Positions 12,479 through 50,885 of a DNA stretch of 64,000 bases are shown in pieces (the first letter of the stretch is position 1; each line of letters begins with the position of its first letter). The position numbers and the translations under genes were made by a program. The notes under the pieces are model-generated. The model was not told the origin of the DNA. It made no database searches and was given only the letters and a program-made list of their open reading frames with translations. The stretch comes from Morchella semilibera (Eukaryota; Ascomycota; Pezizomycetes; Pezizales; Morchellaceae): the NCBI GenBank assembly GCA_009192285.1, contig WBVU01000010.1, forward strand, positions 1,734,111 through 1,798,110, in the 5' to 3' direction.

Positions 12479-15050
12479 ATGTCCACAAACACTCCGAATT
12501 CCTGGGAAGACGCCGCAGGCGATGACAATGATCTCGCCAGACAAACGCAAGAGCAACTGAACATTCAACAGCAACAACGCCAACAGCAACCACAGCAGCA
12601 ATTCCGACCGTCTTACAACGCCCCCTCGTTCTCTCCCGGTGCCGCTACTTTCACCCCCGGTGCGGCCTCTTTTGTACCCGGTGGTACCTATGGCGGTCAA
12701 CAACAGCCATACGGATACAGCCAGCAAAACCCACAATACCCTCAGTACGGGCAATATGGCGCGCAGCAGGGATATGACCAATACGTGCAGTACGGTGGAT
12801 ACAATACTGGGTACGGACAACAGGCAGCGTACGGGCAGCAGCCAGGCCAGTTTTATAATCAGCAGCCACAGCAGCAGCAAACGTATCGCCCTCCTCATAT
12901 TCAAAGACAGCAGCAACAGCAACAGCAACAACAACAGCAACAGCAGCAGCAGCAGGTACCTCAGATCGCTAGGAACCCCAACTCCGGAGCTAGCACCCCA
13001 GTACCTACGGCACCTAAGCCAGCTGCTGCTTCGACCGCTGGTGCCGCCCAGGCCGCGCCGAAAGTTTTGAAGATAGGAGGAAACGAGACTCTGGGCGCCA
13101 AAGTCCTTACAATCGGAGGTGCCGCAACTCCACCAGCAGCTAAGAAGGATGCCCCTGCTGCCTCCGCCAAGGATGTTCCGGCAAACAAAGAGCCTGAAGC
13201 TAAGGCTGCCTCAGCAAAACCAGCAGCTGTCGTCCCAACTACAGCTCCAAAGCCGCCAGCTACGGGCACAGCCTCCGCCGCCGCCGCCGCCGCCGCCGCC
13301 GTAGCGGCAGCCGCAACAGCTGCGGCACAGAAGAGGGAAGCAGACGCCGTCGCAAAGGAACAGGAGGAGGAAGTCGATGATTTAACCCTTGAGGAGCTCT
13401 ACGGAAAGGTACTGAGCTAATAGCCTCGGAGTGTACACTTTGAACCCTTTGCCTATCCCTTTTCCCTAGTGAGGGTGTGGAGGTATCTGCTACAGATTAA
13501 GTGCATTATTATTACTAACACATGGGCCTAGGAACATGTAAATCTCATCTTCATTGGACACGTCGATGCTGGAAAGTCGTCACTCGGGGGTGCTATTCTC
13601 TATGCCACAGGAATGGTTGACGAGCGTACGATGGATAAGTACAAGCGTGATGCCAAAGAGCAAGGTCGTGAATCATGGTATCTCTCGTGGGCACTTGACT
13701 TGACAAAGGAAGAACGTTCCAAGGGGAAGACAGTTGAAGTTGGTCGCGCATACTTCGAAACCGAAAAACGACGATATACTATCCTTGATGCTCCTGGACA
13801 CAAGACTTTCGTACCTAGTATGATTGGAGGTGCTTCACAGGCAGATGTTGGAATTTTAGTCATCTCTGCGAGAAAGGGAGAATATGAAACCGGGTTTGAG
13901 AAAGGAGGCCAGACTAGAGAGCACGCTGTTCTTGCAAAGACTCAGGGTGTCAACAAATTGATCGTCGTGGTGAATAAGATGGATGACCCCACTGTGGAAT
14001 GGAGTCAGGAGCGCTTTATCGAGTGTACAACAAAACTGACACAGTTCCTGAAAGGAACAGGCTATAACCCCAAAACAGGTAATCATACCGAAAAGATAGG
14101 AATTTATTCAAAAACTGATCACGTGTAGATCTGTTTTTTATGCCTTTGTCGGCACTGACTGGTGCTGGTCTGAACTCAAGAGTACCAAAGGATCTTTGTC
14201 CATGGTATGACGGGCCTTCACTCCTTGAGTATCTGGACGGCATGAAGACCTTGGAACGTAAGCTCAAGGCACCATTCATGATGCCAATTTCCAGCAAATA
14301 CAAGGTACGGTTACTTGATCTAGGCCCATTGAATTAACCTCCACCCATCTTTAACTTCCATAATATGTAGGATATGGGAACTGTGATCGAAGGAAAGGTT
14401 GAATCAGGATTTGTTAAGAAGGGTGGTAACCTTCTTATGATGCCCGGGCGCACGCCTATTGAGGTCGTTGCGATCTACTCGGAAACGGAGGAGGAAATCA
14501 ATCACGCCCAATGCGGAGACCAAGTTCGCATACGAGTTAAAGGTGTTGAGGAGGAGGACGTGACTACCGGTTTCGTGTTGACCTCTGCGAGAAAACCCAT
14601 TCACTGTGTTACCGCTTTCGAAGCCCAGATTCATATCATTGATCTCAAGAACATTTTGACTGCCGGATTTGGGTGTGTCATGCATGTGCACACAACTATT
14701 CAGGAAGTTGTCTTCACACAGCTGTTGCATAAACTAGAAAAGGGGACCGGAAGGAAGTCTAAGAAACCGCCTGCTTTTGCAAGTAAAGGTGAGACCTATG
14801 GTACCTTTTTTATCCCGTAAATGCTAATGTTTCATGCAGGGCAAGCAATCATCGCCCGCCTTGAGGCAGCCAGCGGTGATTCCTTTGCTATTGAAACGTA
14901 CGAAGATTATCAGCAGTTGGGGCGTTTCACCCTTCGTGAGCAGGTATATTACTCAACCCCCGGGATCAATTAATTGAGTCTAATTTTTATTTCCGTTTTA
15001 AGGGACAAACTATTGCAATCGGGAAGGTCACGAAGCTTATCTTGGAGTAA
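12479..15050 (+). CDS. SUP35: Eukaryotic release factor eRF3 (SUP35), translation termination GTPase
   Basis: Exons are 12479-13408, 13532-14078, 14129-14304, 14371-14788, 14840-14943 and 15003-15050, giving 740 aa. Residues about 1-165 form a Q/N/Y/G-rich prion-like N domain with QYGQYG-type repeats and a run of more than ten Gln. A charged/Ala-rich M region follows, with an Ala run near residue 265. The GTPase core starts near 311: G1 GHVDAGKSS (residues 319-327), DAPGHK, NKMDD and SALTG, then two beta-barrel domains. G1 ends in Ser-Ser where yeast has Ser-Thr, a conservative change. With eRF1 it drives GTP-dependent peptide release at stop codons in the cytosol. The first intron (123 bp) separates the prion-like and linker part from the catalytic core. 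Confidence 0.97.
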
Positions 15051-44297: not shown

Positions 44298-45601
44298 ATG
44301 AGCTCCCCAAAGAGAAGAATAGAAACAGACGTACGTTCCAGGGACCTTATTTGGGGATCATCTACCCTTGCACCACACTTTATTCTCTGCTAACAGCTTA
44401 TCTTTTAGGTCATGAGGTACCACAACACGTCCCCGTCCCCTCTACCACCGCAATTCCGCGACCCTGTGCAACTCGTGTGCCTTTCCCCCAATTTCCGTTA
44501 ACGTTGCTGACTGACCACGCATACAGGCTGTAAGTTCTTTGAAGCTTCCGAAACAAGCGAGTGAGGCCCCGATATTGACCTTTTACTAGCTTGATGAGTG
44601 ACTATGAAGTTACCCTCGTCAATGATAATAGTAAGCCCCCCCCCCGGGCAACCAAGGGAGCTTTGAAACTCCCTCCGGTATAACGTCACTAATACGCCCC
44701 CCTCCCCCCACAGTGTAAACCTAGCCCTCTCAAACTCTTTCTTTCCCCACAACTTCTCACATGACGCAGGCAGGAATTCTACGTCCGGTTCAAGGCCGAA
44801 GAGAGTATTTCGTACCTCCTCTCCCCCCACCCCCCCCCCCACCACACCTTGTGCTTTTTCGCGCTTTCCCGGTGGTGCGCATGGCTTAGCCGTCGGGCCG
44901 CGCGCACACCCCCGAAACGGAATGGGAGGCGTGGGCATTCTGGAAACAGATTTGCCGGGCAAATCACGAGTAAAAAAAAAAAAAAAAAATTCAACTAACT
45001 TAGTGCACAGCTCCCTTCGCCGGTGGCAACTGGAAGGTGCATGTCGAGCTCCCCGACCAGTATCCATACAAGAGTCCCTCGATCGGCTTCGTGAACCGCA
45101 TCTTCCACCCAAATATTGACGAACTGTGGGTCCCTATCTCTCTCGCCCGGTCACATACACTCCCGGAATATAGAGGGGAAACAGAGAATTGATGCAGTAA
45201 TGAGGTTAGAAGCGGAAGTGTCTGTCTTGACGTCATCAACCAGACATGGTCACCCATGTTTGACATGATCAATATCTTTGAGGTGTTCCTACCGCAGCTC
45301 CTGCGCTACCCCAACCCTACAGATCCCCTAAACGGAGAGGCGGCGGCTCTGTTAATGAGGGAACCGAGGCAATACGACATCAAGGTTAAGGGTAAGTTTG
45401 GCTAGAGGAGAGGGGGCTTCTGATCCTATCAATTCTCCAGAAGCTAATGGGAGGTGGGTGTCAATAGAGTATGTCAATAAATACGCAACTAGAGAAGCTG
45501 CCGACGCTGCCACAGACGAGTCCGAAAGCGATGACGACATGTCGTCTGTTGGATCATTTGATTCCGGGGATGAGGAGCCTGCTGGTACCATGGAGGTCTG
45601 A
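44298..45601 (+). CDS. UBC8: Ubiquitin-conjugating enzyme E2, Ubc8/UBE2H type, with micro-exons
   Basis: Proposed exons are 44298-44330, 44409-44416 (8 nt), 44527-44529 (3 nt), 44590-44630, 44714 (1 nt), 44770-44804, 45011-45125, 45210-45391 and 45468-45601. The total is 552 nt or 183 aa, the same length as human UBE2H. The start [11 protein letters not shown] matches the family. The fold is seen in [20 protein letters not shown] and [19 protein letters not shown], with catalytic Cys84. The C-terminal tail is acidic ([11 protein letters not shown]). In yeast, Ubc8 works with the GID/CTLH ligase to degrade gluconeogenic enzymes. The 8-nt exon gives V-M, the 3-nt exon completes R-L-L, and the 1-nt exon completes Met29 in NDNMQEF. 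The exons from 44770 on are secure; the micro-exons rest on frame, splice signals and family conservation. Confidence 0.88.
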
Positions 45602-49300: not shown

Positions 49301-50885
49301 CTAAACATTCAACTCGCTCACCTCCCCACTCAACTGGCCCCTCCACGGCTCCAGCGCGGCCGCCACCTCCCTCTCCACAAATCTGACCGTCTGCTCGGGC
49401 GCGCGGCCCACAAACGTCTTGGGGTCCATGAGCACGTCGATCTCGGACCATATGGGCTTGAAGAAGTCGTCGCGCTTGATGCGGTCGATGAGGTCGTTGT
49501 CGCGGCCCTGCTGCTTGACGACGGCGCTGGCCTCGTGCGACAGCACGCGGATGCGCTCGTGGGCGTCCTGGCGCGAGGCCCCGAGCGCGACCATGCGCAT
49601 GATGAAGTTCTCGGTGGCCATGAAGGGGAGCTCCTCGCGGATGCGGCGCGCAATCACGGCGGGGTAGACGACGAGGCCGCTGACGACGTTGTCGAGGATG
49701 CGGAGGAGGACGTCGGTGGTGAGGAAGGCGTGGGGGATGTCGATGCGGCGGATTGCGCTGAGGGGGGTTGTGTTAGGTCTCGAGTGGTGGTGGTGTCATT
49801 GACATCGGTTGGGAGGGGAACTCACGAGTCATCAAGGGTCCTCTCGAACCACTGCGCAGAGTAAGTGTCCAGCGCGTCCTTGCACAGGTTCGCCAGATGC
49901 CTCCCCAGCGAGCACATGCGCTCACTCCGCATGGGGTTCCTCTTGTAGGCCATGGCCGAGCTGCCAATCTGGTCCTTCTCAAAGGGCTCCTCCATCTCCT
50001 TTGTGGCGGCCAGATGCCTGATATCGCCGCCGATCCTCTGGCAGGTTGCGCCAAAGCTGCTCATGGCCGCGATGACGTCCGCGTCGACCTTGCGGCTGTA
50101 GGTCTGGCTGGTGACGGGGTATGCGTACTCGAAGCCGGCCATCTGCGTGACGAGGCGGTCGAGCTCCTCGACCTTGTCGTGGTCGCCGCCAAAGATTGCG
50201 AGGAAGGAGGCCTGGGTGCCCGTGGTCCCCTTTGCGCCGCGGAAGCCGAGGTCGCCGTGTGCGCGCGTGAGGTTGCGCAGGTCCCAGAGCAGGTCCTGGA
50301 TCCAGAGGGTGGCGCGCTTGCCGACGGTGGTGAGCTGCGCGGGCTGGTAGTGGGTGTAGCCGAGTGCGGGGAGGTCCTTGTGGGCGAGGGCGAAGGTGGA
50401 GAGTTTGTGGATCACGTTGGAGAGCTTTGGGAGGACGATCTCGAGGCCGCGGCGGAGGAAGATGAGGTCCGCGTTGTCTGTGCAGTAGCAGCTTGTGGCT
50501 GTTTAGGGGGTGGGGGGGTATTATTAGCTGCAGCGATGCAAATTGATGGAGCAAACATAACATGCATACCCCCCCAGTGGATGATTCCCGCAGCTGCAGG
50601 GGCAACCTGGCCAAAGGCGTGAACGTGGGCCATGACATCGTGACGGCGGCGCTTCTCCTCCTCCTCTGCGACCTTGAAGTCTTCGGGGGTGAGGTCGAGA
50701 TGGGCCTCCATCTGTGTTATTGCCTCGTCGGAGATTGGGAGGCCGAGCTGCTTCTCGGCCTTTGCGAGCCAGACCCAGAGCTGGCGCCAGGTGCGGAAGC
50801 GGGTCTTGTTTGAGAAGAGCTGGGCCATCTCTGGGGAGGCATAGCGGGAGGCGAGGGGTGTCTGGTAGATGTCGTTGTTGGCCAT
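49301..50885 (-). CDS. ADE13: Adenylosuccinate lyase
   Basis: Minus-strand exons are 50885-50570, 50498-49826 and 49757-49301, giving 481 aa (yeast 482). The enzyme cleaves SAICAR to AICAR and adenylosuccinate to AMP, each with release of fumarate, in the cytosolic purine pathway. The fumarase/lyase-superfamily signature [11 protein letters not shown] is present. Other family segments are [28 protein letters not shown] (the first intron falls inside it) and [15 protein letters not shown]. The gene is strongly G/C-biased at third positions, like its neighbour MET10, unlike genes in the left half of the window. Divergent from MET10. Confidence 0.97.

Follow-up and report, generated by a model that had tools for sequence, protein, structure and literature searches.

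The UBC8 gene and its surroundings

The window analysed here is a stretch of 64,000 nt, C9:1734111-1798110 of an assembly that comprises 56.8 Mb in 23 contigs. On its forward strand, at 44298..45601, lies a gene for an E2 of the UBC8/UBE2H type, whose product resembles yeast Ubc8 and human UBE2H over the full length. Its conserved neighbours, at 13532-14128 (+) and 49822-50502 (-), are an eRF3-like GTPase and an adenylosuccinate lyase. In the segment 48001-56000 the G+C content rises to 58-60%, while the remaining 4-kb steps of the window have 43-54%, and several long open frames overlap there on the two strands. An Rfam scan of the 64-kb window gave no match. The genome holds 70 matches to Fungal_trans, a domain of fungal transcription factors, as opposed to none in 14 control genomes, which together with the yeast-like proteins identifies it as fungal. 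In the assembly, the contigs of a pair (C9/C10, and also C12/C13) share their genes, which lie at almost equal coordinates. Since C10 is in addition identical to the whole window (64000/64000 bases), these chromosomes are apparently present twice in the assembly. The offsets between C9 and C10 gene coordinates change elsewhere, so that these are separate contigs, perhaps built from shared reads.

The gene model consists of the following features, all on the + strand:

44298..44330, +, UBC8 exon 1, 33 nt (spliced model; aligned to yeast Ubc8)
44409..44416, +, apparent UBC8 exon 2, an 8-nt micro-exon (GTCATGAG) with the weak donor GTACCA
44527..44529, +, apparent UBC8 exon 3, a 3-nt micro-exon (GCT) with donor GTAAGT
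44590..44630, +, UBC8 exon 4, 41 nt, ending in phase 1 (spliced model)
44631..44713, +, intron 4, 83 nt: donor GTAAGC, branch ACTAAT, acceptor CCCCCCACAG
44714..44714, +, putative UBC8 exon 5, a single T, the middle of the ATG for the Met of NDNMQEF (frame, path enumeration, chance tests)
44715..44769, +, intron 5, 55 nt: donor GTAAAC, acceptor ACGCAG, without a perfect branch site
44770..44804, +, UBC8 exon 6, 35 nt, starting GCAGGAATTC (44787 was also weighed as its end)
45011..45125, +, UBC8 exon 7, 115 nt (spliced model; alignment to yeast Ubc8)
45210..45391, +, UBC8 exon 8, 182 nt, carrying SGSVCLDV (spliced model; alignment to yeast Ubc8)
45468..45601, +, UBC8 exon 9, 134 nt with the stop, encoding an acidic C-terminal tail (spliced model)

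These nine exons (33, 8, 3, 41, 1, 35, 115, 182 and 134 nt), whose numbering at the junction of exons 4-6 is that of the initial annotation, give a predicted product of 183 aa. Among the best 60 of its 238 matches, yeast Ubc8 (8pmq) stands at E = 7.4e-65 and human UBE2H entries at 1.1e-62 and 4.3e-62, followed by two entries with general E2 names (7.5e-56 and 5.3e-52), after which there is a drop, the remaining matches starting at 4.8e-24. The Pfam domain UQ_con is matched at 124.1 bits (cut-off 27) when T44714 is included, and the Cys of SGSVCLDV in exon 8 is presumably the catalytic Cys. Within this genome, the only close matches are the C9 copy and its C10 twin, other E2 genes having at most 45% identity.

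A direct join that is one base short

With one exception, all of the UBC8 exons join in frame. The exception lies between exon 4, which ends in phase 1 (AATA|GTAAGC) at 44630, and the next conserved exon, which begins at 44770; both coordinates, proposed by the initial annotation, agree with the sequence. As it had also noted, joining these two exons directly puts the frame off by a single base, leading to NDNSRNST... and then a stop, and UQ_con finds no match in the resulting product. Retaining both introns 4 and 5 likewise leads to stops. Within the interval, CCCCCCACAG|T|GTAAAC places a single base directly after the AG of an acceptor and before the GT of a donor (CACAG|T|GTAAAC at 44709-44720): the acceptor ends at 44713, the T is 44714 and the donor starts at 44715, while the branch-like CACTAATA predicted upstream of the acceptor is found at 44687-44694. 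Adding T44714 restores the frame and creates the Met of NDNMQEF, which aligns without a gap to yeast NDSMQEF, whereas reading on past the T, with intron 5 retained, gives NDNM-stop, again as anticipated. This Met is absent from human UBE2H, which has GGLNEF at that place, and the residue argument thus rests on yeast Ubc8. Filamentous-fungal Ubc8 sequences tend to have NDNMQEF here and KGPEETPF further along.

All paths leading from exon 4 into exon 6, as far as its GAATTC, were enumerated, with no more than two GT/GC-AG introns, each 40 nt or longer. Open, in-frame sequences resulted from 16 of the 154 paths, ten of them with GT donors only. The path through T44714 has the best summed alignment score (85 against yeast, 39 against human), and it is the sole one of the 154 that neither adds nor loses a residue and keeps the conserved Met, which supports the one-nucleotide exon that the initial annotation had put forward. 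In the runner-up (74 yeast, 41 human), T44714 is again a one-base exon and length is kept, but this path depends on the donor GCCCCC and lacks the Met. Taken together, the frame, the conserved residue and the flanking splice signals point to T44714 as a coding exon of one nucleotide, used constitutively in a functional UBC8 gene, a reading to which we assign a probability of roughly 0.77.

Other apparent short exons in the same gene

UBC8 also seems to need the 8-nt and 3-nt exons. Between the ATG and the AAT of exon 4, 1037 chains with up to three GT-AG introns were enumerated, 149 of which are open, and the best open chain (108 yeast, 58 human) uses both micro-exons, bringing R-L-L-M-S-D into register with yeast K-L-L-M-S-D. 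When the 3-nt exon (GCT) is skipped, the frame stays intact and one residue is lost, with scores of 91 and 46; the Pfam match barely differs (124.1 bits with it, 123.6 without). Against the Aspergillus nidulans donor consensus GTRWGY, the 8-nt exon donor GTACCA has three mismatches and the 3-nt exon donor GTAAGT is perfect.

The same approach also shows how far such enumerations can be trusted. The plain join of exons 6 and 7 (44792-44804, 45011-45018) reads KA-EETPF against yeast LGPKDTPY, with a one-residue gap. Among 264 GT-AG chains for this junction, 67 of them open, a gapless alternative uses a 20-nt micro-exon at 44950-44969 within intron 6 and outscores the plain join (95 and 86 against 85 and 76). 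This micro-exon was judged unlikely on account of its poor donor, GTTCAA. In our judgement, which leans on the KGPEETPF of filamentous fungi, the gap in KA-EETPF reflects a real loss of three bases. Since enumeration here favours a doubtful micro-exon, a gapless path is no proof, and the case for the one-base exon rests on its signals too.

Splice signals and chance expectation

Splice signals were scored against the A. nidulans consensus GTRWGY / RYTRAY / YAG, as given in PMC12403724. This was used instead of a model specific to the genome, because three attempts at self-training proved too noisy: they yielded 49 single-donor candidates (14 with GTRNG), 59 candidates, mostly with unlikely GTC donors, and 22 candidates, several of them doubtful. 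By the A. nidulans consensus, intron 4 has no mismatches in either donor or branch site, and the intron 5 donor, GTAAAC, has one. In intron 5, no RYTRAY site with fewer than two mismatches was found; its best candidates, each with two, are CATGAC, TCTCAC and TCAAAC, located 5, 10 and 35 nt from the intron end. A perfect branch site is present in all seven other introns of UBC8, and of all that the gene itself shows, the weakness of this site in intron 5 speaks most strongly against the one-base exon. The looser pattern YTNAY, which can serve as a branch site, occurs in intron 5 as CTCAC, whose A lies 10 nt from the intron end. The start of exon 6 has a tandem acceptor (GCAG|GCAG|), and use of the second AG would break the frame if T44714 is included.

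How often would such an arrangement appear by chance? Two null sets were used: 40000 dinucleotide shuffles of the 139-nt interval 44631-44769, with both flanks at least 40 nt, and 2623 genomic 139-nt tiles from the window and 12 other 10-kb stretches, both strands, with the site's own tile excluded. The looser motif classes are not rare: YAG-N-GT occurred in 4.1% of shuffles and 7.8% of tiles, and YAG-N-GTR in 1.3% and 3.6%. YAG-T-GTR was found in 0.16% of shuffles and in 1.0% of tiles, the latter, from real sequence, being the sober number. The full signature, YAG-T-GTAA with an upstream YTRAY site, is rare (3 of 40000 shuffles, 1 of 2623 tiles), a figure that flatters because this strictest class was defined post hoc.

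Alternatives to a one-base exon

The strongest competing explanation, although an unlikely one, is that the allele is truly frameshifted: exon 6 would be missing one base at its beginning, owing to a loss either in the genome itself or during assembly, with a single intron being spliced and CACAG|T|GTAAAC occurring by chance. The poor branch site of intron 5 would fit such a history, as would the in-frame loss of another residue nearby (KA-EETPF). Moreover, UBC8 is not essential in laboratory yeast. On the other hand, the remaining exons are intact, and chance seldom yields the motif with precisely the base that is needed. The loss, placed between 44769 and 44770, would lie outside any homopolymer; exons 4 and 6 contain no homopolymer longer than three, the longer ones being in introns. 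The two separately numbered contigs agree exactly, though their reads may be shared, and this identity speaks only against a local sequence error and is no evolutionary or constraint test. A plain ...AG|TGCAGGAATTC joint in close relatives, if present, would date the origin of the one-base exon. Scans of GTDB and IMG/VR turned up no fungal orthologue, GTDB giving three remote prokaryotic E2-like matches out of 39 pattern matches and IMG/VR none out of three.

Could a single intron account for the interval without the T? The best GT-AG intron that does so without a deletion, 44678-44773, has a GT donor and a CAG acceptor and leaves an open, in-frame path, with a net 14 extra residues kept in the protein. 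However, it bypasses the perfect donor and branch site of intron 4 and loses the conserved MQ, scoring 51 and 23 against the 85 and 39 of the T44714 path, and Pfam matches its product over no more than residues 48-155, at 114.5 bits. Its use is very improbable. A single GC-AG intron at 44635-44769, giving NDNSKQEF, is open in frame, one residue longer and, at 121.8 bits, hardly below the 124.1 bits of the one-base-exon model in Pfam, but its donor, GCCCCC, is unlike a GC donor, these usually needing an otherwise strong consensus, and the conserved Met is replaced, so that this reading can practically be set aside.

How the one-base exon might be spliced

If T44714 is indeed an exon, we infer that the 139-nt interval 44631-44769 would be spliced out in two parts, as ordinary GT-AG introns (83 and 55 nt) recognised by intron definition. 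The AG of the intron 4 acceptor also forms positions -3 and -2 of the intron 5 donor, and the two junctions would consequently not be recognised simultaneously, but the introns would be removed successively. Intron 4 is likely to go first, because it has the stronger donor, branch site and acceptor. Its removal would generate ...AATAT|GTAAAC, a complete donor for intron 5. The UBC8 junction would thus offer a compact natural substrate for studying how the spliceosome treats overlapping acceptors and donors.

The putative ultra-short exons of 8, 3 and 1 nt fall within about 300 bp, so placed that two pairs of introns are separated by 1 and 3 bases. One may speculate that this cluster is conserved in this fungal lineage and that inclusion of the single base works as a switch of the all-or-nothing type, an idea we consider unlikely. 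If it were true, failed inclusion would lead to a frameshift or to NDNM-stop, and the efficiency of splicing would set the level of the E2.

Comparison with known one-base exons

Few exons of this kind are known. According to a 2024 abstract, functional micro-exons were previously undescribed in filamentous fungi (PMC11121469), and no case of a one-base exon in UBC8 was found in the openly licensed literature. If real, a one-base exon beside a 3-nt exon in a conserved fungal ubiquitin enzyme would suggest that the kind is commoner than the few reports show, and it serves as a warning that real exons may hide at the out-of-phase joints of conserved genes. Reads that cross a one-base exon go unmapped unless the mapper is given the junctions (PMC8831610).

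Single exonic bases are also found in organelles. In a fungal mitochondrial rnl gene, one exonic base remains between two adjacent introns, as is predicted for UBC8, but those are group II introns in a mitochondrial rRNA gene, whereas the UBC8 introns are spliceosomal and lie in a protein gene (PMC12308204). The same paper cites a similar case in Ceratocystis (PMC12308204), and the placozoan mitochondrial cox1 has a one-base exon as well (PMC5436844). Among nuclear arrangements, the stwintrons of ascomycetes resemble the arrangement proposed for introns 4 and 5, in that no normal exon separates the two introns and that these are removed consecutively under intron definition (PMC12403724). In a stwintron, however, no base between the introns reaches the mRNA, while UBC8 must keep T44714 (PMC12403724). 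Reading introns 4 and 5 as a stwintron was rejected, as the frame needs a base between the introns and the base before intron 4 is A rather than the G of a [D1,2] donor (PMC12403724).

The land plant VPS55 gene likewise requires a one-base micro-exon for its full protein; in contrast to UBC8, this exon is backed by RNA-seq and RT-PCR, and alternative isoforms as well as its broad conservation have been demonstrated (PMC8831610). The plant APC11 gene, the precedent named by the initial annotation, holds up as one: its one-nucleotide exon is constitutive and was tested with reporter constructs, and Guo and Liu propose that the two flanking introns are removed successively (PMC4674806), as is proposed here for the predicted UBC8 exon. 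That both proteins act in ubiquitin pathways is probably a coincidence.

The initial annotation had known of no fungal UBC8 report, which still stands for the openly licensed literature, but a fungal nuclear one-base exon does exist in the Fusarium CYP621A gene, supported by RNA reads and presented by its authors in February 2026 as the first fungal case (PMC12940212). The two share a nuclear location, one base with AG-N-GT flanks in a conserved motif, and a requirement for this base by the frame; even the interval is of the same length, CYP621A in F. graminearum also having 139 nt (PMC12940212). They differ in that the base is G in CYP621A and T in UBC8, an E2 gene, and in that CYP621A has many orthologues in addition to its RNA reads, whereas the UBC8 exon is predicted from the sequence of one genome (PMC12940212). 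The T44714 exon would therefore probably be new as an instance, but not as a kind.
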